Shown here: positions 1 to 36,018 of the stretch, piece after piece
How the letters are laid out: every line of letters begins with the position of its first letter
Position numbering within the stretch: the stretch's first letter is position 1
DNA from: a virus
Length of the DNA stretch: 36,220 bases
IMG/VR virus record: IMGVR_UViG_3300025645_000200
Coordinates: 1 to 36,220 of that record
Reading direction: 5' to 3' (one strand)
Translations under genes and position numbers: made by a program
The notes under the pieces: generated by a model
Database searches by the model: none
The model's input: only the letters and a program-made list of their open reading frames with translations
What the model was told of the DNA's origin: nothing

Positions 1-503
1 CAGACGGTATACAGGATAGCAATCGAGTAGGTCACACCAGTAGTGCCTGCGCTGTTGGTCACGGTGATCAGGTCGCCAGTGGCAGCAGTAACGTTGATAC
101 CGTTTGCGTCTGGCCACACGAAAATGCACCCAGCGCCGGGAGTCAAGCCAAAGCCGTCACCGGCAGCGAGCATGAATGGGACGCCGTTACTTGCGGGGCG
201 AGTCACGTTGACACTGTTGGTGTTACCGGATGATGCAGTAATAGCGATGGCCTTGATCCTGTCCGCTGTTACCGTGGCACCCAGAGCATTCGTGAGCACG
301 CCAGAAAGATCTAGGTCTTCAGTCGCGCTTACACCAAGTGTGCGGGTATCGCTCCAGTAGTCGGTGGCTTGATTTGCGCCAGTGCCGTTGGTAAACGCAA
401 ATGTCGTCTCCCAGTTAATGGGGGCGCTGGCTGTTACGAGATCAAGGGCACTGGTTTGCTCTGCCCGGAATCCAAACGAAAGTCTTGCGGAGCTTATTGT
501 CAC
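1..503 (-). CDS. Beta-rich phage protein, C-terminus cut by window edge
   Basis: Open frame of 167 residues from a GTG at 501-503 to the left edge with no stop reached. The GTG overlaps the TGA of the lipoprotein gene (GTGA) and has an AGGAGTGG Shine-Dalgarno upstream. Composition is rich in Thr, Ala, Asn, Gly and Val with alternating polar and hydrophobic residues, which suggests a beta-sandwich. The visible end (SIAILYTV) looks close to a natural C-terminus. It resembles uncharacterised virion or decoration-type proteins common in siphophages, but I recognise no named family. It lies between lysis genes and terminase. Function unknown; that it is a coding gene is well supported by the coupling and the uninterrupted frame. 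Confidence 0.7.
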   Translation of the reverse strand, partial: MTISSARLSFGFRAEQTSALDLVTASAPINWETTFAFTNGTGANQATDYWSDTRTLGVSATEDLDLSGVLTNALGATVTADRIKAIAITASSGNTNSVNVTRPASNGVPFMLAAGDGFGLTPGAGCIFVWPDANGINVTAATGDLITVTNSAGTTGVTYSIAILYTV

Positions 504-781
504 AGGTCGCCACTCCTGAGCATCTCAACAAGTCTTTCCGAATCCGGAACGCAATAAGCCCTGGCCGCCTTTCGATCATCTTCCGTGATCGCCAAGCCTT
601 TGGTAGTAGTGATCTGGCAATACTCGCCGCCGATACCCACGAACCGGGACAGGCTGCTTGCTTCACCTTTGCTGATCCTGACGACCTGGCCATCGGTGAC
701 GCAGCCTGAGATGGTCAGACACAGCACAATCAGCACCAGCATCGACAGACAATAAGGCGGGTAATCGTTTAGGTTCTTCAT
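500..781 (-). CDS. Small phage lipoprotein in the lysis region
   Basis: 93 residues. The N-terminus has a short polar stretch, a hydrophobic segment (about residues 11-24) and a lipobox ending TISGC at Cys27, so signal peptidase II processing and outer- or inner-membrane anchoring are predicted. The mature part is about 67 residues with two more Cys (about 55 and 77). The ATG overlaps the stop of the DUF1353 gene by four bases (ATGA), and the stop overlaps the GTG of the next gene. Placement after the endolysin is where lambda keeps Rz/Rz1, but there is no proline-rich Rz1-type sequence and no nested Rz-like coiled-coil partner, so a spanin role is only a possibility. It could equally be a surface-exclusion lipoprotein. 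Confidence 0.75.
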   Translation of the reverse strand: MKNLNDYPPYCLSMLVLIVLCLTISGCVTDGQVVRISKGEASSLSRFVGIGGEYCQITTTKGLAITEDDRKAARAYCVPDSERLVEMLRSGDL

Positions 782-1194
782 CGCTTGCGCCTCCAGTTAC
801 CAAGGGTTGAGCTATACGCCCTGACGCCAGCCCATTGCCACCAGCGGCGAGCAAAGCCGGTGCCATACTCCCTGAGCATCTCGCGGTAGTAGGCGTCTGC
901 CCTGGCCCGGCATGACCACGGAATCAAGCCTCTGTCAGTCAGCAGGCAAAGTGCATCGTGTGCGAGACTGGCTCGAACCACTGCCGGTGTATCAATCGCA
1001 GGGCCGGAACCGAAGTCCCAGGCAAACCCGGCAAATACATGCAGGCATCCATTTTGGGCAAGGCGACACTTTGATGCAGGAAGTTCAATCTCCCCTTCAT
1101 AGCCGGTGATCGGGGTGTTGTAGTCGGTGTCAGACAGCAGTAGGCCGAGGGTTTGGCCGTTTTTGCGGATCAGGTCGTAGTGGATGCCGTTCAC
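778..1194 (-). CDS. DUF1353-family phage protein
   Basis: 138 residues. The central part contains a D60-F-G-S-G-P segment followed by a hydrophobic stretch and A78-H79-D80, then a basic, Trp-rich C-terminus. This matches my recollection of DUF1353, a family of phage proteins found near lysis or tail genes whose biochemical role is not established. The Asp and the His-Asp pair are the most conserved-looking positions. Start and stop both overlap neighbours by four bases (ATGA), so it is translated in the holin-endolysin-lipoprotein chain. A role in lysis is suggested only by context. Family assignment is from motif memory, not a search. Confidence 0.75.
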   Translation of the reverse strand: MNGIHYDLIRKNGQTLGLLLSDTDYNTPITGYEGEIELPASKCRLAQNGCLHVFAGFAWDFGSGPAIDTPAVVRASLAHDALCLLTDRGLIPWSCRARADAYYREMLREYGTGFARRWWQWAGVRAYSSTLGNWRRKR

Positions 1195-1601
1195 TTTCCG
1201 TCCCTCATGCGACTAGATAGGGTGGCAGCACGATGGCCCACCTGCACTGCCCACTGGCTTTGGAGCATCTGCTTGGCAGTCTCGCTGTAATTCTTGGCGT
1301 CAATAGCCGCCCACATCTTGGTAAATTTGCCCATCGTTGGCATACCGAGGTTGAAGCACATCTCGACCAGCACGTTTTGCCGAGTCTCATTGTGCTGACG
1401 CCAGTTGGGTTTGGCTCGGTCAAGCTCGGCAGCGCAGTCCTCGATGTCGTCATGTAGGATCTGCATCACTGCGGCATCTGAAATCGGGTTTTCGAGGTTG
1501 TGGCCAACGCCAATGGTGGGCTTGCCTGCGGTGCATTTGTACATGCCGCGCTTGTAGCCCTCATGCAGAATGAGGGAGTTGATCAGTTCGGGGATATTCA
1601 C
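1191..1601 (-). CDS. Endolysin, T4-lysozyme-type muramidase (GH24)
   Basis: Hydrolyses the N-acetylmuramic acid to N-acetylglucosamine bond in peptidoglycan to release progeny. With the GTG start at 1599-1601 it has 136 residues. The catalytic pattern E-8aa-C-5aa-T is seen as Glu14, Cys23 and Thr29, followed by I-G-V-G-H. The Cys replaces the Asp20 of T4 lysozyme, a substitution common in this family. I chose the GTG because it overlaps the holin-like gene stop (GTGA) and has AGGAG seven bases upstream; an upstream ATG would add 26 residues that do not look native. No signal peptide or membrane segment is present, so export depends on a holin, consistent with the gene just upstream. Confidence 0.88.
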   Translation of the reverse strand: MNIPELINSLILHEGYKRGMYKCTAGKPTIGVGHNLENPISDAAVMQILHDDIEDCAAELDRAKPNWRQHNETRQNVLVEMCFNLGMPTMGKFTKMWAAIDAKNYSETAKQMLQSQWAVQVGHRAATLSSRMRDGK

Positions 1602-1837
1602 GACCCCGCTCCTGTCCATTTGTCCCAAAAAGTGAGGGCGGCGGCTGTTAGCACAGACCAAAGCGGAAGGACAACGCACATGACTCCGGCAATAAATCCG
1701 GCCTGCTTGCTCATCTTCTGCTGTATGTCCTGGACGGCAACCAGGGTGGCGTCAACTTTGTCCGTGAGGTCACGGATGGCGATGTTGTCGGTTTCCCGGT
1801 GCGCCTCAAGTTTTGCCACACGCTCTCCTTCAGTCAT
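1598..1837 (-). CDS. Holin-like small membrane protein (XhlA-like layout)
   Basis: 79 residues. Residues 1-45 are charged and helical with heptad-like spacing (coiled coil). Residues about 47-70 form one long hydrophobic segment, probably a single transmembrane helix, followed by a short polar tail. This N-terminal coiled coil plus C-terminal membrane helix matches haemolysin XhlA-type proteins and other class III-like holins. It is immediately upstream of the endolysin and overlaps it by GTGA. It is the first gene after two terminator-like hairpins, as expected for the first gene of a late lysis cassette. Alternative: a membrane anchor or antiholin rather than the pore former; no other holin candidate is seen nearby. 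Confidence 0.65.
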   Translation of the reverse strand: MTEGERVAKLEAHRETDNIAIRDLTDKVDATLVAVQDIQQKMSKQAGFIAGVMCVVLPLWSVLTAAALTFWDKWTGAGS

Positions 1838-1851
1838 GGCGTCCTATCCGC

Positions 1852-1880
1852 AAAAGAAAAAACCCGGTTCTGGGGTTTTG
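1852..1880 (-). terminator. Rho-independent terminator upstream of the lysis genes
   Basis: Read on the minus strand, an AAAACCC / GGGTTTT stem (1873-1879 and 1859-1865) with a 7-nt loop is followed by a T-rich run. It sits 15 bases upstream of the holin-like start, so lysis gene expression would need antitermination or a promoter inside. The stem is A-T rich at its base, so its strength is uncertain. Confidence 0.55.
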
Positions 1881-2040
1881 GTTATGGGTCGCGAGCACCA
1901 GGCGGGGAGCCTGACTACCGAGGGGGCGGCAGTGCTGTACTCGCATAAAAAGGGCGCGGGAGAGGCAAGACCTCTGTCACCCGCTGTTATTACGATCTGT
2001 TCGTCAGCGCGACATATCCCGCATAAATCTTTAGGCAGAA

Positions 2041-2080
2041 ACGCAAAAACCCCAGCTTTTGGCTAGGGTTCTTGTGCGTT
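2041..2080 (-). terminator. Strong hairpin terminator, tR'-like position
   Basis: On the minus strand an AACCCTAGCC arm pairs with GCTGGGGTT across a short AAA loop and runs into TTTTTG (2045-2049 on the plus strand are A). An outer AACGCA/TGCGTT pairing lengthens the hairpin. It lies about 25-60 bases downstream of the predicted start of the candidate late promoter at 2110-2138, the arrangement seen for lambda pR'-tR'. The stretch 1881-2040 between the two hairpins has no supported gene. Confidence 0.65.
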
Positions 2081-2109
2081 GAGGAAAGTACCCCAACGTA
2101 TGAAGTGAC

Positions 2110-2138
2110 ACTGTACATACACCAGAACAGGCTATCAA
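2110..2138 (-). promoter_or_regulatory. Candidate late promoter (pR'-like)
   Basis: On the minus strand TTGATA (2133-2138) and TACAGT (2110-2115) are separated by exactly 17 bases, a fair sigma70 match. Predicted start is near 2103. It points at the lysis genes and is followed at once by a terminator, so the unaided product would be a transcript of roughly 60 nt. This is inference from consensus and layout. Confidence 0.5.
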
Positions 2139-2154
2139 TGGGTTTTTTGGTGTA
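2118..2154. promoter_or_regulatory. Inverted repeat flanking the late promoter -35
   Basis: TACACCA at 2118-2124 and TGGTGTA at 2148-2154 form a 7-bp inverted repeat, extended imperfectly outward (GTACA / TGTAC). The arms bracket the TTGATA -35 box. It could be a binding site for the winged-helix protein encoded directly upstream or for an antiterminator. The arms are too far apart for a typical single-dimer operator, so the call is tentative. Confidence 0.4.
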
Positions 2155-2157
2155 CGT

Positions 2158-2379
2158 TTAGAAAGCCGCTCGAATCACCGTAATCGCCCTGTGCTTTCTG
2201 GCCTCCCGTGCAATGTACCGCTTGGTCTCCAGCGCCAGCAGCACCTTTGCCACTGGTGTACTGTGCCGATAGCCGCACCCCGTTTGTATCTCACTGATCG
2301 TGGGCGCACAGCCTCTATCCTCAATAGCGTCGATAATGAAGTCCAGGACAGTGCGTTGACGCTCAGACAGTTTCTTCAC
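2158..2379 (-). CDS. LexA-type winged-helix DNA-binding protein without protease domain
   Basis: 73 residues from GTG at 2377-2379. The sequence begins K-K-L-S-E-R-Q-R and continues through a PT-I-S-E-I helix, a C-G-Y-R recognition-helix region and a wing, matching the N-terminal DNA-binding domain of LexA over nearly its full length. The S24 peptidase half is absent, so it is a stand-alone regulator. I preferred the GTG (GAGG upstream, 17-bp overlap with the previous gene) to an ATG at 2439 that would overlap by 77 bp and add residues outside the domain. As the last gene before the candidate late promoter, it may regulate late transcription; that is inference from position. Confidence 0.75.
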   Translation of the reverse strand: MKKLSERQRTVLDFIIDAIEDRGCAPTISEIQTGCGYRHSTPVAKVLLALETKRYIAREARKHRAITVIRAAF

Positions 2380-14597: not shown

Positions 14598-15779
14598 ATG
14601 CGCATGAGACCTAAAAAACCCCGATACCTCAACGGCACTTTGCTGGCTGATAACCTATACCCTGACCCCCGGAAACGTGCTGGCTACTATCAGTACAAAC
14701 TCAAGGACGGCAGCAGCAAGGTGTTCGCTGCGGCCACCATCGAAGATGCAAACCTTGCAGCCGAAGAAGCCAACGCCATGCGCGACCAGTTGCCGGAAAT
14801 TGTTGCCGGTGCTGCGCTGCGGCGTGATCAGCTTGCGTTCCATGTGACGCCTTATATTGAGTACATGGAGAAGATTAACCCGAAGTTGAAGATGCTCAAG
14901 CGCAACGGCAAGTCACAGTGGAAGAATGATCAGTACGCATTGCACCAGCTGGCGCGCGAGATAGAATTCTTGCAGCAGATCACATACGAATCACTGCGCA
15001 CCTGGTGGGATGGTCTGACCTACTACCAGCAGCACGGTAGGCTTGCATCCATGCGCCGGTTCTTCAGTTGGCTGATGGGACAAGGGTTACTGCCGAAACT
15101 GAAATTTAACCCGTTCGCGCTGTCCTACGATCAGCCGCGCCTGCTGGTGAAAATGAAGATCGACAAGGTGCGGCCACCACTGACACAGATCGGGTATCGT
15201 AAGGTGCATCAAGCGGCCGGGGAACTTGGGTATGAGTGTTTGCAGATCGCGATGGGTATCAGCCTCTACACCACACTGCGCGAAGGCGATGTCGTGCATC
15301 TGAAATTCAAGGAACACATTGTCGAGAACGTGCTGCGTGTAGTGATCGGCAAGTCGGAGCAACAGCGCGGGTCTGCAAAGGCGGCAAGGCTCAGTTGGGA
15401 TCTGGAGAAGCACCCCACTTTGAAGAAGCTGATCAACCGCGCGCGTGAACTGGCGCTGATCAACAAGGGGTCGCCGTTCGTGATCAGCCACACACCAATG
15501 CGCCGGGTATGGAATGAGAGGAAGGAGCACATCTGCCAAGTGACCGAGGAGAGAGTCGCCCGGATGTTTGCTGATGCGCGCACCAAGGCTGGGGTGCCTG
15601 GCGTGGTATTCCATGAGGTGCGAGGGCTTTCATCGACACTGTACAAGATTGCCGGGTATACCGAGGTGGAGATCCAGAACCTCATGGCGCATGAATCAGT
15701 GGATACAACGCTGGGTTATATGGACGCGGATTCCCTTCCCTACGAGGAAGTGACGATGCGGTTGGATGTGGAAAGGTAG
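14598..15779 (+). CDS. int: Tyrosine-recombinase integrase, lambda-Int type
   Basis: Catalyses site-specific integration at the tRNA-Pro locus. 393 residues. Residues 1-60 resemble the arm-type DNA-binding domain of lambda Int (basic start, then Y-Y-Q-Y-K and a short helix), residues about 75-180 the core-binding domain, and 190-393 the catalytic domain. Catalytic residues are all visible: R228 (T-T-L-R-E-G-D), K252, H339-x-x-R342, H365 and the nucleophile Y374 (L-G-Y-M-D). A second in-frame ATG two codons in is possible. attP lies 90 bases downstream of the stop. Likely co-transcribed with xis from the PL-like promoter. Confidence 0.95.
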   Translation: MRMRPKKPRYLNGTLLADNLYPDPRKRAGYYQYKLKDGSSKVFAAATIEDANLAAEEANAMRDQLPEIVAGAALRRDQLAFHVTPYIEYMEKINPKLKMLKRNGKSQWKNDQYALHQLAREIEFLQQITYESLRTWWDGLTYYQQHGRLASMRRFFSWLMGQGLLPKLKFNPFALSYDQPRLLVKMKIDKVRPPLTQIGYRKVHQAAGELGYECLQIAMGISLYTTLREGDVVHLKFKEHIVENVLRVVIGKSEQQRGSAKAARLSWDLEKHPTLKKLINRARELALINKGSPFVISHTPMRRVWNERKEHICQVTEERVARMFADARTKAGVPGVVFHEVRGLSSTLYKIAGYTEVEIQNLMAHESVDTTLGYMDADSLPYEEVTMRLDVER

Positions 15780-15868: not shown

Positions 15869-15915
15869 TGGTCGGAGTGGCGGGATTTGAACCCACGACC
15901 ACTTGCCCCCCAGTC
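15869..15915 (-). other. attP: attP core: 3' part of a tRNA-Pro gene
   Basis: On the minus strand the sequence has an anticodon loop CTGGGGG (GGG anticodon), a 3' anticodon arm GCAAG, a perfect-type T arm (GTGGG-TTCAAAT-CCCGC) and an acceptor end ACTCCG-ACCA. The 5' half of a tRNA (acceptor 5' strand, D arm) is missing and the upstream anticodon strand does not pair, so it is not a functional tRNA. This is the identity segment that phages carry to restore a tRNA gene after integration, and it is 90 bases from int. The exact crossover limits cannot be set without the host site. The surrounding 15916-16038 has no gene. Confidence 0.88.
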
Positions 15916-16038
15916 ATGCTTGCAGAAAAACCTATGGGGTTGATTTTCAACAAATTACAGGGTTTTAGCAATAAGCCAGTTTTAGAAGCCCAATTTATAC
16001 AGTGCGATGCGTTCGCGCCTGCTGGCGGGATAGCGTGG

Positions 16039-16800
16039 CTAGAACTGCACATCCACAATTTCAATCATTGTCACAAGCACTCCGAACTGAATCAGGCTGT
16101 CCGGGCTGCGCGGCCGTGGGTCTTTGCCCAGGTTGTCAATGAACCAGATCGTCAGATCATCCCGGACCACCATCGTGAAGGCGTGCCCGAATGCGCCGCC
16201 ACTGTGATGTATCACGGCACCGACCGTACCGATGGCTGCATCTGTAGGCCCAAGGCTTGTGAGCCAGCCATAGTCCAGCGCCACGGCGTTGTCACAGTCC
16301 TGTGTAGGAGTCGAGCCGTTGAAGTTGTAGCCGATGCTCGGACGGTTGGCCGCGATCCAGTCGATTGCCGATTGTGGCAGCAGGCTGTACTCAAGGTCGC
16401 TGTGTCCCCGGTGGAAGTCCGGGTGCTTGCGTACTCGCTGTGACTCTGCAAACAGTCGGTGGATCAGGCCGTCAATATCCATCGGGCGAGGCGGTACGGG
16501 CTGGCCTGCCCATTGGCCCACGTTGGAGTTGTACAGGATCTTGGTCGGCCACGTCATATCGAAGCTCGGCACGGGGCGGATCATCTCAGCCAGTACCCTG
16601 TGGTTTGGCACGTTGGCATGGATGGCTTGCACAGTGGCGTTGAGATGCTCAATCGTGGTGATGCCCAGCTTTGCCAGACCCGGCTCGATGTGGTGCTGGG
16701 TAGGCATGCCACGCAGCAGGATTGCAAAGCCCGGTGTGTTCTTCAGGTAGGCGAACGCTGCATCGAGGCCGTTCTGCGCGATCCAGTCAGAGATCAGCAT
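16039..16800 (-). CDS. Probable transglutaminase/papain-like Cys-His-Asp protein
   Basis: 253 residues, last gene of the late operon. The C-terminal half has D168-C169-D-N at a helix start, then G205-H206-A-F-T-M-V-V and F220-I-D222-N-L, the order and spacing of the Cys-His-Asp triad in bacterial transglutaminase-like cysteine peptidases. The N-terminal 110 residues are helical and unrecognised. No signal peptide. Roles to consider are a virion-associated or tail-tip enzyme, or a lysogenic-conversion cargo, because it lies against attP. Starts 14 bases inside the upstream gene. The catalytic reading is from motif pattern only. Confidence 0.6.
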   Translation of the reverse strand: MLISDWIAQNGLDAAFAYLKNTPGFAILLRGMPTQHHIEPGLAKLGITTIEHLNATVQAIHANVPNHRVLAEMIRPVPSFDMTWPTKILYNSNVGQWAGQPVPPRPMDIDGLIHRLFAESQRVRKHPDFHRGHSDLEYSLLPQSAIDWIAANRPSIGYNFNGSTPTQDCDNAVALDYGWLTSLGPTDAAIGTVGAVIHHSGGAFGHAFTMVVRDDLTIWFIDNLGKDPRPRSPDSLIQFGVLVTMIEIVDVQF

Positions 16801-20238: not shown

Positions 20239-20730
20239 TTACTTTTTTCGACTCCGTGCCACTTGCATTCCGAAAGGTGCAGGGTATGCGAGAAATCGCA
20301 TTCTTGCCGTTTGTGATCTTGGATCTTCATCGCCTAGTCTTGCTGCACTTGCGGCAATGACTGAGGACAGGCCGGTGATTGCACCTGATGTTGCGTGAAT
20401 TCGGATGCAGGCCGCAGTGCCGACAATGGCAGAACCTTGGCCAGCCAGAGCGCCAGAGGCCGCATGGATTGCCACACGCAAGGCCGATCCAGCCAAAGCC
20501 GAGCCACTGCCAGCCATAGCGCCTGATGTGGCGTGCACGGTAATGTGCACAGCCGTGCCAGCAACGGATGATCCAGGCCCAACTATGCCGCCACTGGACG
20601 GATGTGTTACCGCGCTGGATACAGTCTCGGCAGGTAATACTGTGGTATCTGTGCCGTCATTCGGTGCCGCCCGCTTGAGGCTTGGCGCGTAGAGCCTGCC
20701 GCCGCCAACGGTAAACCGGATTGGCCCCAT
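20239..20730 (-). CDS. 23-residue-repeat tail protein
   Basis: 163 residues. Four tandem repeats begin at His43, His66, His89 and His112, each with the pattern H-x-x-S-G-x-x-x-G-x-G-S-x-x-x-G-x-A, spaced exactly 23 residues. The regular turn-forming Gly/Ser and Ala pattern suggests a beta-helical or stacked fold. Similar repeats are found in phage tail proteins, but the function is unknown. The 69-bp DNA period gives a route to copy-number change by recombination. The gene sits among tail-tip genes; the C-terminus is basic (A-R-S-R-K-K). Confidence 0.7.
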   Translation of the reverse strand: MGPIRFTVGGGRLYAPSLKRAAPNDGTDTTVLPAETVSSAVTHPSSGGIVGPGSSVAGTAVHITVHATSGAMAGSGSALAGSALRVAIHAASGALAGQGSAIVGTAACIRIHATSGAITGLSSVIAASAARLGDEDPRSQTARMRFLAYPAPFGMQVARSRKK

Positions 20731-20735
20731 GTCGG

Positions 20736-21869
20736 TTACTCAGCAACTATGTCAATTTGGCCGCTGTACAAGGTGAGCGTCGTCGCCGGCTTCGGCATCT
20801 CAAGGAATGCAAGGCAGGCGTTGTCATAAATTTTGGTCAGGTTGAACGCTGTGTTGATGCCGTCCACGATGCAAACCATGTTAGCAACAGGCACAGGGAA
20901 AAAAGCGATGGGGTGCGCGATCACGAACGTAATGGTTCCTGTTGCCACAAGCGCGGAGCATTGCATGCGGGTCAGGGCTTTGACGCCAACGTCACCGGCA
21001 GCGAGCGGCATAAACCAACTTCCTGCGACGAGATCAATACCACCCACAGTGCAGGATGAAACGCCGGCAATTGTCGGGAACTCCCGAACAGTAGTTCCGT
21101 CCTGGCCTGTGTAGCGGCAAACCGTCCAGTTGTGCGCAGTCGCGGGCAAGACAGTTGTGGGATTCATCGGAAAGACGAAGTTGCCGCCGATGTAGTCGTC
21201 AGTGTTTGCAGTTTGATTCTGATATCGGGTCGGGACTCCGGTCGGATCTTCCGTTGCTGTGCTGTTCATGGTTTTGGCGACGCTGAAAAGGCGGTCGTAC
21301 AGCAGCAGCGAGTTTGCAACCACCGAGCCGGTCACATAGCCTGCAACGAAATGCGCGGTATTTGTGTTGGCCGGGTTCTTGAACCCAAGCGCCCCGGTGT
21401 TGGCCGAAGTGTGAGCCGTACCACCCGGAGATGCTGCGCCTGCTGCACCTGCTGCGGGAAAACCTGCCCCAATCCATAAATCCTCGCCGTTGCCGATGGC
21501 GTTGGACGCCGTGCCGGTTTTTTGGAAATTGAGGGATTGTTTCTTGCCGCCCGTAGCCGCCGCAATGATCTCAGACAGAGATGCAAACGCGCCGTTCTGC
21601 CTCATGAATCGGGGATGGTTTACACGGTTTCGCTGCTTGGCCTGCTCTGCCCGCTGCATACGCATGAGCGTGTCGTGGCCGCGATCAAAAGCAGAACCGA
21701 ATTCGCCCGCCTCGATCTTGCCACGGAAGCCGCCGCCCGGCATGGCGTAGACTTCGCCGGGGACACCATGAACCGGGATCGGCCAGTAAAAGCCACTCAT
21801 TTGATTTGACAGGCGTTCGACTTCTTCAGCGCCAAGCCATCGTTCAAGTTGCCCTGAGTGAGTCATCAT
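20736..21869 (-). CDS. Large hypothetical virion structural protein
   Basis: 377 residues. The first 100 are charged and helical (including R-M-Q-R-A-E-Q-A-K-Q-R-N-R); an Ala/Gly-rich central part follows (G-A-A-G-A-A-S-P-G-G-T-A), and the final 200 are beta-rich. I do not recognise a named family; proteins of this kind occur in tail modules of siphophages. ATG overlaps the upstream stop by four bases; a second ATG follows directly. Presumably a component of the tail tip. Confidence 0.65.
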   Translation of the reverse strand: MMTHSGQLERWLGAEEVERLSNQMSGFYWPIPVHGVPGEVYAMPGGGFRGKIEAGEFGSAFDRGHDTLMRMQRAEQAKQRNRVNHPRFMRQNGAFASLSEIIAAATGGKKQSLNFQKTGTASNAIGNGEDLWIGAGFPAAGAAGAASPGGTAHTSANTGALGFKNPANTNTAHFVAGYVTGSVVANSLLLYDRLFSVAKTMNSTATEDPTGVPTRYQNQTANTDDYIGGNFVFPMNPTTVLPATAHNWTVCRYTGQDGTTVREFPTIAGVSSCTVGGIDLVAGSWFMPLAAGDVGVKALTRMQCSALVATGTITFVIAHPIAFFPVPVANMVCIVDGINTAFNLTKIYDNACLAFLEMPKPATTLTLYSGQIDIVAE

Positions 21870-23159: not shown

Positions 23160-23945
23160 TTAACCAGCCCACGGCAAAGCAAGATCATTGAAATCATCTT
23201 CCTTGTAGATTTCCGGATAAACTACGCCGGTGACGGTCGAAATCACAACATCCTCGTGTGGCATATCTGTTTGCGGGTCGATATAGACAACAGTCGGAAC
23301 CCAGGTACTTGGGCGGTATTGGAATCGGTAGGTCACAGTGTAGGTTTGCCCGCCGTCATTTGTCTCTGCATCAATCCCAAGGCAAAGCAAGGTTTGTGCT
23401 GCAAATAATCCTGCTCCAAGCGATAGAGAATTGATCTTTCCAGGGTAGGTTAACGCCTTGGTCAGTGGGTGCGCTGATTCGCGGCGAGTGAACACCATCA
23501 CCATTTCAGGAACCTGAATATCAACCGAGCCAGTCTGATCTGGCTGGCCGGTGAGCGTGACAACGATCTGCGCGCCGACATTATCCACCTCTGTTTTTGA
23601 TCCGGTGACAGAGGAGCCAATCTGAATGATGGCGTCGTCTGCGTCTTCACTTGGGTCAATTGATGTGTAATCAGGGCGGCGGTATTCGATGACTACGCGG
23701 ATGGTAGCTGGGTCGCCTTCCTCGTGCGTGCATGTGCGACTAAGTGCATAGATTGGGACTAGCTCGATTCCGTCAAAATCCGGGTGGATATCGGCATACT
23801 GCGGTACGTCCTCATGCGACAGGACTTGCAGCTTGGTTTCCCCTGCGGTAGTGGTCGCAATAAATAGTCGGGTGGATGTATACCCGTCTGCGCTTTGAGA
23901 TATGCTCGATCCTTCGACCAGTTCATCGGTCACGGTGATGGTCAT
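23160..23945 (-). CDS. Hypothetical tail-tip protein
   Basis: 261 residues, encoded just after the tape measure (ATGA overlap), the usual place of distal-tail or tail-tip hub proteins. Mostly beta strands; a G-K-I-N-S-L-S-L segment near 170 and a conserved-looking V-T-Y-R-F-Q-Y-R-P-S-T-W near 205. No direct match to a Dit or Tal family that I can defend. Likely part of the tail tip. Confidence 0.65.
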   Translation of the reverse strand: MTITVTDELVEGSSISQSADGYTSTRLFIATTTAGETKLQVLSHEDVPQYADIHPDFDGIELVPIYALSRTCTHEEGDPATIRVVIEYRRPDYTSIDPSEDADDAIIQIGSSVTGSKTEVDNVGAQIVVTLTGQPDQTGSVDIQVPEMVMVFTRRESAHPLTKALTYPGKINSLSLGAGLFAAQTLLCLGIDAETNDGGQTYTVTYRFQYRPSTWVPTVVYIDPQTDMPHEDVVISTVTGVVYPEIYKEDDFNDLALPWAG

Positions 23946-25234
23946 ACAACAATACCTCGCCGGCTGATGATTGACAGATAAGCATTCGTGGACTTCTGTT
24001 GTGCAACTATCTGCTGCTCGCCTCTTGTGATAGTTGCTGCTGCGCTTTGCGGGCCACCGATAAAGACGCGTTCAAGATCCACTTGGCGGAATTCGCTGGT
24101 CTTATTGGTCGCAGGCCCGCCAGTTGTGGGAGCTGCTGCACCGCCGATGGTGTCGGCAATCTCTGCCGCTTCAACCTTCAGCCTGTTAAAGTAGGACTCC
24201 ACTTTTTTACCAGCTTGGCCCGTGGCAAAATCGCTCCATGCCTCACCAGCACTCTTTGCAGCCTCTTCTGCCTTCTCGAAAAATGAAGACGCAACTGCGT
24301 CAAGCGCGTTGGTTTCGATTCCGGCAATCAGAAAAGCGTTGGCGGTTGCAAGTCCATGCTCCATCACGTTACCGATGTACGACATCGTTTTCGTTACCAC
24401 GCCAGCGGATGCCGTGACGCCTGACACAAACGAAAACCACATGCCTTTGATGAACTCAAAAGCGTTTGCAATCTTTCCAGCAGCAGCAAATATTTGATCA
24501 AGCGCGTTGACTACTACGCCTCCACTTGTGTTGCTGTTCTGTGCGAACTCCAGCATTCGATTTGAGGCAGCGATGATGTACGGCGACAAATCAATTGCAA
24601 ACCGCATGCCAATGGCGCCGACAGCCTTACCGACTTTCGTCATGGAGTCGTTCGCCTCTTCAACCATTCGACCCTGCACATCGGTAAACGTGAGGCCCAT
24701 ATCCTTGGCCTGCTGCTGGGCAGCTTTGATTCCTTCCGCGCCCTGCTCAAACAGCGATCCCATCTGAAGGCCGGCCTTGCCAAAATTCTTGACGAGGAAG
24801 GCTGCGCGCTCTGAGGCGTTGCCAATTGCTTTGTACTGGTCAGCAATGACCAGTAGCCGCTCGTCCGTGGTCATGCCGGCCATGCTGCCTTCTGCCGACC
24901 CGTTCACGCGCAAAATGCCTGCCGCGAGTTTGTCCAGGTCTACGCCGGCAAGGTCTGCTGCGTGTTGATAGCCAACAAGCTGCTCAGTGGACAAGCCCAA
25001 GGTGCGAGACAGTTTCGATGTAGCATCAACCGCGTCCCCCTGCTGCTTGATCAGATGGACAAGCGCACCGAGGGCGATACCTGTGACGGCAGCGCCATAG
25101 CGGGCAATCGTGCCAACATGTCCAGCAACGTCACGCGAGAAGTTTTCAACCGTGCGCTTGGCTTTCTTAAAGCCTTTTTCAAAATTGCCGGTTTTGGCAG
25201 TCAACGAAACACCAAGGTTTGCGATAGTCGCCAC
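23942..25234 (-). CDS. Tail tape measure protein (short)
   Basis: 430 residues. The N-terminal region (A-K-T-G-N-F-E-K-G-F-K-K-A-K-R-T-V-E) is the usual start of tape measures that act on a lambda- or HK97-type tail. Hydrophobic segments near residues 43-62 and 265-285 flank long helices (L-S-R-T-L-G-L-S-T-E-Q-L, then Q-Q-Q-A-K-D-M-G). Location directly after the frameshifted chaperone pair confirms the role. At about 0.15 nm per residue the tail would be near 65 nm, shorter than lambda; no separate peptidase domain is seen. ATG separated by 14 bases from the T gene. Confidence 0.88.
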   Translation of the reverse strand: MATIANLGVSLTAKTGNFEKGFKKAKRTVENFSRDVAGHVGTIARYGAAVTGIALGALVHLIKQQGDAVDATSKLSRTLGLSTEQLVGYQHAADLAGVDLDKLAAGILRVNGSAEGSMAGMTTDERLLVIADQYKAIGNASERAAFLVKNFGKAGLQMGSLFEQGAEGIKAAQQQAKDMGLTFTDVQGRMVEEANDSMTKVGKAVGAIGMRFAIDLSPYIIAASNRMLEFAQNSNTSGGVVVNALDQIFAAAGKIANAFEFIKGMWFSFVSGVTASAGVVTKTMSYIGNVMEHGLATANAFLIAGIETNALDAVASSFFEKAEEAAKSAGEAWSDFATGQAGKKVESYFNRLKVEAAEIADTIGGAAAPTTGGPATNKTSEFRQVDLERVFIGGPQSAAATITRGEQQIVAQQKSTNAYLSIISRRGIVV

Positions 25235-25944: not shown

Positions 25945-26328
25945 TTAAACCGGGTCGTATTCCGGGCCGGTCACGCCATCAAACTGGAAAACAAAGGTTC
26001 CCTTCATCACATCTTCAAGCGGGATTTCTCCAGATGAAGACACGAAGAACCCGGAGCCAACAAGCTCGTGCGTGTCCGGGAAAGTCACGGTTGCGGTTGC
26101 AGCCGTGTTCAGGGGTGGTGGGTTGGCAGCATCAAAGAAAATTTCAGCAGTGAATGCGGGCGGTTCAATCAGAGAGCCTGGGATCTTCTTGCGGTAGCCG
26201 GTCGAAGCCAGTGTGGTCACATCAAGAACAGCCACTTCCTCGCCATCAATAGAAAAACTGACAACCTCGCCGTCATAAACGCCGATACCGAAATCAATCA
26301 AACAGCCTGTGCCTACGCCAATAGCCAT
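25945..26328 (-). CDS. Tail tube protein, paralogue 2
   Basis: 127 residues. Begins M-A-I-G-V-G-T-G and shares, with the next gene upstream, S-I-D-G-E-E-V, G-Y-R-x-K-I-x-G-S-L-I-E-P-P, N-x-A-A-T-A-T-V-T, G-F-F-x-S, E-I-P-L-E-D and V-F-Q-F-D-G. These match lambda gpV/HK97-type tail tube beta sandwiches. The two copies follow each other with a nine-base gap and lie just before the G/GT chaperones, as expected for the tube gene. It lacks a C-terminal Ig domain. Whether it builds the tube or caps or stabilises it is open. Confidence 0.78.
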   Translation of the reverse strand: MAIGVGTGCLIDFGIGVYDGEVVSFSIDGEEVAVLDVTTLASTGYRKKIPGSLIEPPAFTAEIFFDAANPPPLNTAATATVTFPDTHELVGSGFFVSSSGEIPLEDVMKGTFVFQFDGVTGPEYDPV

Positions 26329-26337
26329 AATTACCCC

Positions 26338-26715
26338 TTATGCCCAAGTCGGGCCGGTCATGCCGTCGAATTGAAAGACATAAGTCGCCGTCATCTTGTC
26401 CTCCAGCGGGATTTCCATACTGCGGGAAATGAAGAATCCCGTGCCTGAAAGAGTGTTCGCGCCCTTGGTGACGGTGGCAGTTGCGGCCACGTTGATTGGG
26501 GGCGGTGCGGCGGGGTCGAATTGCAGTTCGACAGTAGCCTGGGGCGGTTCAATCAGAGAGCCTTTGATCTTCTCGCGATATCCAGTGGTGGACAGGGTAG
26601 AAACATCAATAACAGGGACTTCCTCGCCATCAATGCTGATGCTCAACGTAGAGCCTGAATAAGTGCTGCCAGAGGCAAACGTGATGGTTGCGCCTGTACC
26701 TACGCCAATAGCCAT
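26338..26715 (-). CDS. Tail tube protein, paralogue 1
   Basis: 125 residues, the first of the tandem pair. Shares about half its residues with the downstream copy, from M-A-I-G-V-G-T-G to V-F-Q-F-D-G-M-T-G-P. Size and motif order fit a minimal siphophage major tail protein. A terminator-like hairpin sits 17 bases upstream, so its expression may be adjusted separately. Good Shine-Dalgarno (TGGAG). The first copy is the better candidate for the abundant tube subunit, by analogy only. Confidence 0.8.
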   Translation of the reverse strand: MAIGVGTGATITFASGSTYSGSTLSISIDGEEVPVIDVSTLSTTGYREKIKGSLIEPPQATVELQFDPAAPPPINVAATATVTKGANTLSGTGFFISRSMEIPLEDKMTATYVFQFDGMTGPTWA

Positions 26716-29711: not shown

Positions 29712-30494
29712 TCAATCTCGTTTGATGATGTGCTGTTGTGCAATTGGTGCGGAGTGGTCGTAAGCCTTTTCCACTTGCTCGGCGGTAGGGAGCGCGTCCC
29801 TTTCCACGAATTCCAGCTTTAATTTGCCGTCTTCTTGGATGTTGAAATTCACATCAACGGTGTCGTATCCGTAAAGCCTGTCCATTCTCGAATCGCATGA
29901 ATCCATCAACGTGGTACTTTTCGGCATGTTGATCTTGATGCCGCGCGCGTGAGCCTGGCCAAGCCAGAATTCAACACAGGCCCGGCCTTTTTCGGCATGG
30001 TGGGTATTGGCATATGTGAAATCCATCCCGAACACGCTAATCTGCGTTGCGCCCACATGAATGGCCAGCGCAACGGCATAGGCTGCGGTGCTGTTGAAGT
30101 AGTCGTGGCCAAGATTGTTCAGCACGTCTTCAAGCGGAAATTCAACCAGGGCCGGGTAGTCTGGATGCGCCCGGCTTGTCACTACCGGAACGCTGCTATG
30201 CTTGATCCAATCGACCATAGCCGCAATGTTGGAATCAGGCGCGGCTTTGGCGCGCACTTCTTGAATCCTGATGTCGTCCATGTGGAACACAAGGTCGCAC
30301 GCGAACACATCGCCCAGGGCGTTGATTGTCCAAGTCAGATCGCAGAACTTGTTACGCCCGCCCTGCCTTTTCGTAATATCAAGATACTGATCAACGCTTG
30401 GCCCAAGGCCAAGGATGGCGATGTGCTTTTCGGCTTGAGCGGAATTTTCGTTAACGGCTGGATCTGTTTGGTTGCTGTCTGAATTATTAATCAT
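29712..30494 (-). CDS. Rossmann-like phage protein (DUF115/MptE-like)
   Basis: 260 residues from ATG 30492-30494 (GGTGAGAGAGAC upstream); the frame extends 44 codons further but those residues are non-native. I-A-I-L-G-L-G-P-S-V-D is a glycine-rich Rossmann loop. Later N-S-T-A-A-Y-A-V-A-L-A-I-H-V-G-A and I-S-V-F-G-M-D-F-T-Y resemble the DUF115 / 6-hydroxymethylpterin pyrophosphokinase MptE-like fold. Such proteins occur in phage head modules and may be sugar- or nucleotide-dependent transferases that modify capsid or host surface; substrate is unknown. Confidence 0.68.
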   Translation of the reverse strand: MINNSDSNQTDPAVNENSAQAEKHIAILGLGPSVDQYLDITKRQGGRNKFCDLTWTINALGDVFACDLVFHMDDIRIQEVRAKAAPDSNIAAMVDWIKHSSVPVVTSRAHPDYPALVEFPLEDVLNNLGHDYFNSTAAYAVALAIHVGATQISVFGMDFTYANTHHAEKGRACVEFWLGQAHARGIKINMPKSTTLMDSCDSRMDRLYGYDTVDVNFNIQEDGKLKLEFVERDALPTAEQVEKAYDHSAPIAQQHIIKRD

Positions 30495-30512
30495 GTCTCT
30501 CTCACCAGAGTA

Positions 30513-30538
30513 AAAAGGATGCCGGTTACGGTTCCGGC
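30513..30538 (-). terminator. Weak terminator-like hairpin
   Basis: On the minus strand GCCGG and CCGGC (30534-30538 and 30521-30525) pair with an 8-base loop and are followed by ATCC and five T residues. The stem is only five pairs, so activity is doubtful; it lies between the capsid-associated gene and the Rossmann-like gene. Confidence 0.35.
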
Positions 30539-30570
30539 GCTGGCGCGGTGAGTCACCAGCCGTATTCACA

Positions 30571-31008
30571 TTACGGGTTGGTGGTCGGTGATTCGTAGGG
30601 GCTGTGGAGGACTGCCGCCACACCAACTACACCCACGGATGTAACGCCGGACTGGACTGCATCCACGGACACGTATCGCTTGTTGCCAACGTAACCAACG
30701 CGCTTGGTCACTTCTTTGGTCACAGCTGCCGTGCGCGGAGTTGCCGCAGGAAGGCTTGCCAAGGCTTCAGTGCCGAGCAGGTAGGTGTCAGCGACACTGG
30801 TCATGGTGCCAGTTACATCGCCTTCTTTTACCACCAGAGTAACGACTGTGCCGGTAGTGGTCACAGCGCCATAGGACGCCACGAACTCAACACCACCATA
30901 ACCCTGACGGTCAACCACAAGGCCGGTCTTGGTGGCATTTGCGCCAATGGCCAGCGGAGAAATCACGGTCTTTGTACGCATGTTGTTGTGTAAATCTTTG
31001 ATGCTCAT
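30571..31008 (-). CDS. Capsid-associated / decoration-type protein
   Basis: 145 residues from ATG 31006-31008 (AAGGAAG Shine-Dalgarno); the frame extends 19 codons further into the terminator. M-S-I-K-D-L-H-N-N, an A-I-G-A-N-A-T strand and K-R-V-G-Y-V-G-N-K-R-Y-V-S-V-D are typical of a small beta protein found directly after the major capsid gene in many siphophages. Probably a head decoration or stabilising protein. Preceded by a strong terminator, so its level may be lower than the capsid's. Confidence 0.7.
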   Translation of the reverse strand: MSIKDLHNNMRTKTVISPLAIGANATKTGLVVDRQGYGGVEFVASYGAVTTTGTVVTLVVKEGDVTGTMTSVADTYLLGTEALASLPAATPRTAAVTKEVTKRVGYVGNKRYVSVDAVQSGVTSVGVVGVAAVLHSPYESPTTNP

Positions 31009-34205: not shown

Positions 34206-34348
34206 TATTTAGCCTGCGCCATTTTTACAGCCTGAATCAAAAGCAGCATCCCGCCAATCACATACCCGGAAGGCTGGAATATGAGCCAGGATCCATAGGA
34301 AACGCTCGATGCACCAACAATCAAAAGCAGGTCGGGTAAATATTTCAT
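34205..34348 (-). CDS. Small two-helix membrane protein between terminase and portal
   Basis: 47 residues from ATG 34346-34348 (ATGA with the terminase stop) to TAA 34205-34207 (TAATG with portal). Two hydrophobic stretches, about 5-24 and 28-41, are joined by a short P-S-G-Y turn, giving a hairpin that could span the inner membrane twice. Such tiny proteins lie in this slot in many HK97-type phages with no known role. Too short for routine gene callers; the two overlaps argue that it is real. Confidence 0.75.
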   Translation of the reverse strand: MKYLPDLLLIVGASSVSYGSWLIFQPSGYVIGGMLLLIQAVKMAQAK

Positions 34349-36018
34349 GCCGCTTCCCAAAATGATTTTCCGGATAACGACTCCGGGTTTAAGTTCATCA
34401 CGCTTTGAGCATCAAAGATGGCCATTAATGGGTCTATCTTCGCGCTGCCTGATGCCTGTTTCGTAATTGATACCGCATTGCCCTGCTGGACAATCCGCGC
34501 ATTACCTGCGCACCAGTTCATCATTTCTGATCCACTGTGACTGATCACGCCGCCAGCAAGATCGCGTTCAGTCCCCTTGATGGCGCTGTTCAGCTTCCAT
34601 CCTTGGGATATGGCGACAATCTGATCCAGATTGATGCCGCGCGACTCCGTGACAAGTTCATCAACGATCTGACTGATGCCCGCAGCGTCCACACCGATAC
34701 CCTGCTTTTCAGGCAGAAGACCGGCAGAATTTATGCGCTCGATAATGTCGGCCACGTTGGTAACATCATCGCCAGGCACATCAACGAACGTCAGGTCGCC
34801 AGCTTTGGCGAAGTCCCTGAGCCTTGAGGCAATGTCCTTGCGACGCTCAAGCACAATCTTGTGCGCCCACGCATGGCACCAGACCAGACGCTTACGGCTT
34901 CCGGATTCTCTGCCGATGACGGCCAGCCCCAGCAAGTCGTCAAGCCCGCCGCCGTCGATGCCGACAACAACAACCTCAGAACGAGCAATCAGGCTCTCAA
35001 GCGTCAAGGTCGGGTCAGAATTCTGCTGCCAGAAATCAGCACCGGCCCAGCGGTCGGAACGCAAGTTCATCCCGATTTCAACGTTCAGGTGCTTGGCCAG
35101 GAACTTTTGCAGCGTGCCGTCAGTTTTCGGCAGATTCTTGACAAGCTGATCTTGTAGCCATTCGCTGCTGACTGATCGGCCCAGGTTCGGGTTTGTAATG
35201 TAGAAGTTTGCCGGATCGAGGTAGGCTTTCGACTCAATCATGGCCTTTGGGAATTCATAGAGAACGCCCAGCGATTTCTTGTCTACGATTTTCCCGTCGC
35301 GTACATCGCGGTAATAGTTCAGCTTGTCCCTGAACACCCCTGCCGGCGGTTCGTCGCTTTGAGTGGTGAGGTAGATCACCCAGCCCTCGTCACGCGACAC
35401 CTGCCCGCCTGTGGCCTCCATGAACATGGCCTCGGCCTGCGCCTTGGTGCCGAACAGCCAGTGTTCATCAATCAGCACCTTGCCAGACTTCTTACCCGAT
35501 ACCGTGTCAGTGTCAGCCGCCACCACTTTGAGTGACGATCTGGAAACGCGGTGAGTGATAGTCCTGATATGGTCTTGAACATGGAACAGTGCAGAAAGGT
35601 CTTCGTCAGACCTGATCATGCCGGCGGCAGGCTTGAAACTGTTGTCTGCCACCTCTTTGGTGGGTGCCAAGATCAGGTGTTCTTCATCTTCGCGCCAGCA
35701 CATCAACACAGCGGTCAACATGATCCCGGCGGCAATGGTCGACTTGACGTTCTTCTTGCTGATCAGTAGATAGAACTCCCTGATCAATTGCTGCCCGGTG
35801 TCTTCGTCGTAAGCGCCAAAAATTGCGGCAACGAAATCGAATACCCACTGGTCGCTGCACTCGCCAAAGGTCGGCTTGCCCGGTAGATCGGACACCCGCA
35901 GGCTCTTGAAAATCTTAATAGCTCGCTCGGCTTCTTCTGGATAAATCGGTGCCGGGATGATCGACTGCCGATTGATAAGCCTCGATTCCCAGTCAATACA
36001 AGCGGTAGACCATTCCAC
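34345..36018 (-). CDS. terL: Terminase large subunit
   Basis: ATP-driven DNA packaging motor with nuclease. 557 residues from GTG 36016-36018, directly after the small-subunit TAG. Walker A variant S87-K-K-N-V-K-S-T, Walker B V-L-I-D184-E185-H, and a coupling segment T-T-Q-S-D-E follow. The nuclease part has V-G-I-D-G-G-G-L-D-D, an acidic pair, and further acidic residues near G-V-D-A-A-G. It fits the HK97-type terminase family (Terminase_1). No other start is as likely, since the first in-frame ATG lies well inside the ATPase. Confidence 0.94.
   Translation of the reverse strand: MEWSTACIDWESRLINRQSIIPAPIYPEEAERAIKIFKSLRVSDLPGKPTFGECSDQWVFDFVAAIFGAYDEDTGQQLIREFYLLISKKNVKSTIAAGIMLTAVLMCWREDEEHLILAPTKEVADNSFKPAAGMIRSDEDLSALFHVQDHIRTITHRVSRSSLKVVAADTDTVSGKKSGKVLIDEHWLFGTKAQAEAMFMEATGGQVSRDEGWVIYLTTQSDEPPAGVFRDKLNYYRDVRDGKIVDKKSLGVLYEFPKAMIESKAYLDPANFYITNPNLGRSVSSEWLQDQLVKNLPKTDGTLQKFLAKHLNVEIGMNLRSDRWAGADFWQQNSDPTLTLESLIARSEVVVVGIDGGGLDDLLGLAVIGRESGSRKRLVWCHAWAHKIVLERRKDIASRLRDFAKAGDLTFVDVPGDDVTNVADIIERINSAGLLPEKQGIGVDAAGISQIVDELVTESRGINLDQIVAISQGWKLNSAIKGTERDLAGGVISHSGSEMMNWCAGNARIVQQGNAVSITKQASGSAKIDPLMAIFDAQSVMNLNPESLSGKSFWEAA

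Follow-up and report, generated by a model that had tools for sequence, protein, structure and literature searches.

A candidate transglutaminase-like cysteine enzyme encoded by the last late gene of a temperate phage

Introduction

What is encoded by the last late gene of a temperate phage, if its product has a cysteine, a histidine and an aspartate in the order of a transglutaminase-like enzyme and is called by no family library? This question is raised by a virus record from IMG/VR that is 36,220 bases long; all of it was analyzed here and is called the window in the following. A sequence-only reading of the gene (the target gene) had singled out the motifs D-C-D-N (Cys169), G-H-A (His206) and I-D-N (Asp222), had proposed a transglutaminase/papain-like fold for the protein and had placed the gene at the very end of the late operon, beside attP. 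Here, we ask how much of this holds when the protein is compared with family profiles, with shuffled versions of itself, and with the contents of phage, plasmid and genome collections.

Results

Setting of the target gene

The late genes of the phage, which is temperate, lie on the minus strand and run from the terminase large subunit over the portal, head protease, major head protein, tape measure and presumed tail-tip/fibre proteins to the target gene (Table 1). Translation of the latter gives 253 amino acids from an ATG start that falls 14 bases within the end of the upstream gene, and neither a promoter nor a terminator candidate was found on the minus strand near this start. Because of the overlap and the lack of a nearby promoter or terminator candidate, the gene reads as the last one of the late operon, with which it is probably expressed; the position claimed for it is thus borne out. 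Its GC3 of 0.74 is the highest among the 13 late genes compared (range, 0.49 to 0.74), which would fit a late arrival without proving it.

A gap of 260 bases parts the target gene from the integrase gene, and inside this gap lies a tRNA-like remnant that we take to be the 3' half of a tRNA-Pro. The remnant matches the Rfam tmRNA model with an E value of 6e-5, which is below threshold, and ARAGORN found no whole tRNA there. Hence, the proposed neighborhood to attP is partly supported by the integrase gene and the tRNA-like stretch, but the att core itself stays presumptive, given the sub-threshold match and the missing whole tRNA.

The nearest relatives of the terminase in named genomes are those of Cupriavidus (73%) and Ramlibacter (71%), and therefore, a host among the Burkholderiales is a fair guess. 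None of the tail genes past the tape measure gene had a match at an E value of ≤1e-3 when 24 late regions from phage and prophage relatives were compared. Furthermore, the 141-aa and 460-aa proteins encoded upstream of the target gene had no relatives among phage records, and therefore, the whole tail end appears to be poorly sampled.

Table 1. Features of the window discussed in the text
Feature	Position	Strand	Remark
Terminase large subunit	34345-36018	-	start of the late gene run
304-aa protein	29712-30626	-	head region
125-aa protein	26338-26715	-	tandem with the 127-aa gene
127-aa protein	25945-26328	-	tandem with the 125-aa gene
Tape measure protein	23942-25234	-	late region
377-aa protein	20736-21869	-	counterpart in MW202713
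163-aa protein	20239-20730	-	mostly imperfect repeats
TIG-domain protein, 544 aa	18604-20238	-	presumed tail-tip or fibre protein
Orphan gene, 460 aa	17212-18594	-	presumed from its position to be a fibre or tail-tip protein
Orphan gene, 141 aa	16787-17212	-	upstream of the target gene, overlapping its start by 14 bases
Target gene, 253 aa	16039-16800	-	final late-operon gene; candidate for a divergent transglutaminase-like cysteine enzyme
D168-C169-D170-N171	16288-16299	-	candidate nucleophile and sole cysteine; on the C93 Cys column
G205-H206-A207	16180-16188	-	candidate catalytic His; on the C93 His column
I221-D222-N223	16132-16140	-	candidate catalytic Asp; on the C93 Asp column
tRNA-like remnant	15869-15980	-	presumed att core; Rfam tmRNA model, below threshold
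Integrase	14598-15779	+	faces the target gene
Lysozyme and DUF1353 genes, two small orphans	500-1837	-	other end of the record; lysozyme at 1191-1679

Some other genes of the window are recorded here for themselves. Two tandem genes that lie immediately upstream of the region of the tape measure gene encode proteins of 127 and 125 amino acids with a mutual identity of 63%, which resemble duplicated tail tube proteins but were matched by no family of PHROGs or Pfam. With an identity of 62%, the 377-aa protein has a counterpart in an uncultured podovirus from Manatee Spring (MW202713), where the gene comes right after that of the head-to-tail joining protein; it is thus a virion protein common to apparently different virion types. 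The repeats of the 163-aa protein are of the type A-T-S-G-x-x-x-G-x-G-S; this protein had no Pfam match, and its PHROG matches were weak (E values of 0.29 and 0.8). The 304-aa protein of the head region is weakly MptE-like (22.9 bits, under the cut-off). As a whole, the record seems to be a circularly permuted form of the phage genome.

The triad and its expectation by chance

All three motifs were found in the translation in the order claimed, at residues 168 to 171, 205 to 207 and 221 to 223. The distances of 37 residues from Cys to His and of 16 residues from His to Asp fall, like the order, within the ranges of the Peptidase_C93 family (35 to 42 and 15 to 17, respectively, in 21 of the 23 profile rows, those measurable by script). 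However, the triad alone proves nothing, because such spacing is contained in 32% of the shuffles of the target composition, if the geometry is defined loosely as C-x(30-45)-H-x(12-20)-[DN]; 2,134 of the 6,499 open frames contain it as well. A strict form, [DN]C[DE][DN]...GH...[ILVMF]DN, which had been defined after the target had been seen, was present in none of 20,000 shuffles and in two of the 6,499 frames, both of them being the target, which is in the database twice.

Family libraries and structure models

No family was called for the target in Pfam, NCBIfam or PHROGs. It did not match Peptidase_C93 (PF06035) at the curated cut-off of 27 bits, and nothing was found when the C93 model was run over the whole window with a maximal E value of 10. 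The Pfam search gave no match to Transglut_core (PF01841) either; the sole Pfam match was to Ntox22 (PF15527), with 13.5 and 15.1 bits at a curated cut-off of 25. Single-sequence AlphaFold models reached a pLDDT of 36.1 for the whole protein and of 37.6 for residues 107 to 253 and were unusable. In both, C169 is immediately followed by a strand instead of a helix, at a pLDDT of ≤50, and helix and strand were not separated by the hydrophobic moments after C169 (0.17 versus 0.13). The protein has a calculated pI of 5.9 and a single cysteine, and a crude hydropathy scan revealed no N-terminal hydrophobic stretch, clear signal peptide or membrane segment.

Comparison with a Peptidase_C93 profile

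A profile test was chosen because it does not start from the triad motif. The C93 profile had 23 rows, 22 of which were Peptidase_C93 (BTLCP) domains of genomes and one a viral C93 domain (from the contig L147); the genome rows came from 22 of 24 fetched loci, and L167 and L172 were left out since the motif filter missed them. A Transglut_core profile was made from 15 domains, those that passed the filter among 30 fetched loci. With the filters off, scores were obtained for the target, for shuffles and for 6,498 open frames, among which is the target's own.

On the C93 profile, the target scored 5.1 bits (E value of 9.9), and a single alignment across the core put its Cys, His and Asp on the triad columns of the family. 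It outscored all but 1 of the 6,497 other open frames; the sole higher frame was a cytosine methylase gene, whose alignment is without the Cys and Asp columns. The target score was reached by 8 of 20,000 full shuffles and by 168 of 20,000 shuffles (about 1 in 120) in which the ten motif residues were kept fixed; neither count is a strict probability, as shuffling loses local helix and strand patterns. The domain outside the motif residues thus adds some support for a likeness to C93.

The score itself is fragile and ranged from 1.0 to 6.0 bits over 23 jackknife models. True C93 members reached 41 to 174 bits when left out one at a time. The 15 Transglut_core domains, which are true relatives of the fold, gave 2.2 to 9.1 bits on the C93 model, and therefore, the 5.1 bits of the target are at the level of a remote fold relative. 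The reversed target did not score on the C93 model, our own Transglut_core profile did not report the target, and the W-A-T-P...G-G stretch that lies upstream in most C93 rows was not seen in it. Judged by these comparisons, the likeness to C93 appears to be real but weak and far under the family level. In sum, the proposed transglutaminase-like fold is favored by the profile test, more weakly with the motif fixed, but at only about 5 bits and with Transglut_core silent.

Search for relatives

By tblastn, no relative of the target was found in 50,697 phage records or 72,556 plasmids. Exact peptide words of the target retrieved no relative from viral and genome contigs, nor did the triad, written as a DNA pattern, from viral contigs: one scan matched what reads as a nucleotide kinase and another frame, neither of which was target-like outside the pattern, and another gave six matches, of which four (L144, L145, L149 and L146) were taken for chance and two (L147 and L148) were true viral C93 proteins. 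Among related phage records (50 of the 81 loci L004 to L084), a single one matched at an E value of ≤1, with 12.5 bits and off the triad, and relatives were found in none of 19 genomes with a related terminase. In the taxonomic surroundings of genome G052, matches were seen in 5 of 399 genomes of its family (E value of ≤0.01), in 1 of 399 of its order and in 1 of 369 of its class (both at an E value of ≤0.001). All seven were rejected as chance matches; none aligns the triad, and one reads as a ParE-like toxin. As far as sequence searches can tell, the target is a protein without detectable relatives in the collections searched.

C93 itself was found in none of 51 sequences (the 50 related viral records and the window), and a C93-like motif in none of 126 loci (11,225 frames). 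The 77-kb viral contig L147 encodes a clear Peptidase_C93 (positions 1741 to 2226, minus strand; 107 bits), which had one relative, a weak one in the Methanosarcina virus MetMV, among the 50,697 phage records.

Discussion

From the gene, its residues and their spacing, its position and its profile ranking, we infer a fold, a catalysis, a substrate and a site of action: the target may be a very divergent transglutaminase-like papain-fold cysteine enzyme with a pattern nearest that of Peptidase_C93 (BTLCP), a reading that we put just short of an even chance. A smaller but considerable chance goes to a coincidental triad in a fast-evolving accessory protein, structural or fibre-associated, or in its chaperone, which would not be an enzyme at all. 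Indeed, fibre accessory genes are usual after fibre and tail-tip genes, and the target gene comes after two such presumed genes and the 141-aa orphan. The high frequency of the loose geometry in shuffles, the missing family match and the unrelated cytosine methylase frame that outscores the target on the C93 model are consistent with coincidence as well. On the other hand, the ranking survives with the motif residues fixed (168 of 20,000), and the strict motif is unique to the target among the frames tested; both argue for a genuine likeness.

The order Cys...GHA-F...I-D-N suits other papain-like branches too, so that an enzyme of the NlpC/P60, CHAP or Gln-deamidase (Gln_amidase/Tox-PL) type, acting on peptidoglycan or on a host protein, has to be considered. 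We regard this as unlikely, since Pfam and NCBIfam gave no match to these families. A search for Gln_amidase found 0 of 114 genomes and gave no match in control genomes either, so that it does not count against this branch. An Ntox22-type toxin carried as cargo would agree with the best Pfam match of the C-terminal piece (E value of 0.025, 15.1 bits) and with a GC3 above that of all other late genes compared, as cargo might show. However, the match is well below the cut-off of 25 bits, spans positions 40 to 99 of the 129 of the model and stops at residue 204, short of H206 and D222, and no immunity partner was identified beside the gene, which makes this origin very improbable. The role of an endolysin in the lysis cassette is unlikely, as a lysozyme is encoded elsewhere in the record. 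For a peptidoglycan or cross-linking enzyme of the tail and for a conversion factor, as offered by the sequence-only reading, the evidence speaks neither way.

If the target is a transglutaminase-like enzyme, C169 at the start of a core helix would attack an amide, either that of a Gln side chain or a peptide bond. Activation of C169 would fall to H206, on the next strand, and the orientation of H206 to D222, on the strand that follows. Water could then resolve the acyl-enzyme, which would make the protein a protease or deamidase, whereas resolution by an amine would lead to cross-linking. The protein would be made late, alongside the tail genes. From the late position and the lack of a visible export signal, an action inside the infected cell as it dies, or within or on the phage particle, may be assumed, not a Sec-exported, periplasmic one like that of HvyA. 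As for the substrate, our preferred guess is a protein that the phage makes late, for instance one of the fibre or the tail tip. It is imaginable, although rather improbable, that the target is the first member seen of a separate transglutaminase-like family, expressed with tail genes and not exported by Sec, that trims, deamidates or cross-links tail/fibre proteins or intracellular host proteins late in infection.

A real enzyme would be a late, apparently nonexported phage member of a class otherwise known as exported bacterial surface regulators, and it would be a reason to test the function of the transglutaminase-like genes that are common but unexplained in phages. If the target is not an enzyme, it shows how readily a Cys-His-Asp spacing arises by chance.

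How does the target compare with known systems? A review of papain-like peptidases, in its available part, puts C93 and Transglut_core into one subgroup (PMC10318531). Transglut_core (PF01841) has the presumed fold and triad order of the target, but the profile of 15 domains misses it. With C93/BTLCP proteins such as HvyA of Caulobacter, the target shares the Cys-His-Asp order and spacing, the contexts D-C-[DE]-[DN] and [IL]-D-N, and a weak alignment across the core; it differs in scoring far under the family and in lacking the upstream W...GG-D-C. According to the text available for HvyA, its triad is C192, H226 and D241, with spacings of 34 and 15, triad mutants are inactive, and C93 proteins are usually exported to the periplasm (PMC4241560); HvyA has a Sec signal in that account, whereas the target has no obvious one.

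The sequence-only reading had known of no described phage role for this arrangement. As to the role, this is fair with respect to the PMC literature, but transglutaminase-like cysteine proteinases of phages as such are already known and have been described in print as being common among the viruses of river water (PMC11283719). In the part of that study available to us, BTLCP is the most frequently identified type of auxiliary gene in single-virus genomes from river water, the phage BTLCPs are treated as auxiliary metabolic genes, and no function is shown for them (PMC11283719). The viral protein of L147 is a clear C93 with 107 bits, and the target is not. What the target has in common with these freshwater-virus BTLCPs, as far as they are described in the available text (PMC11283719) and exemplified by L147, is a Cys-His-Asp motif of the transglutaminase-like kind in a protein encoded by a phage.
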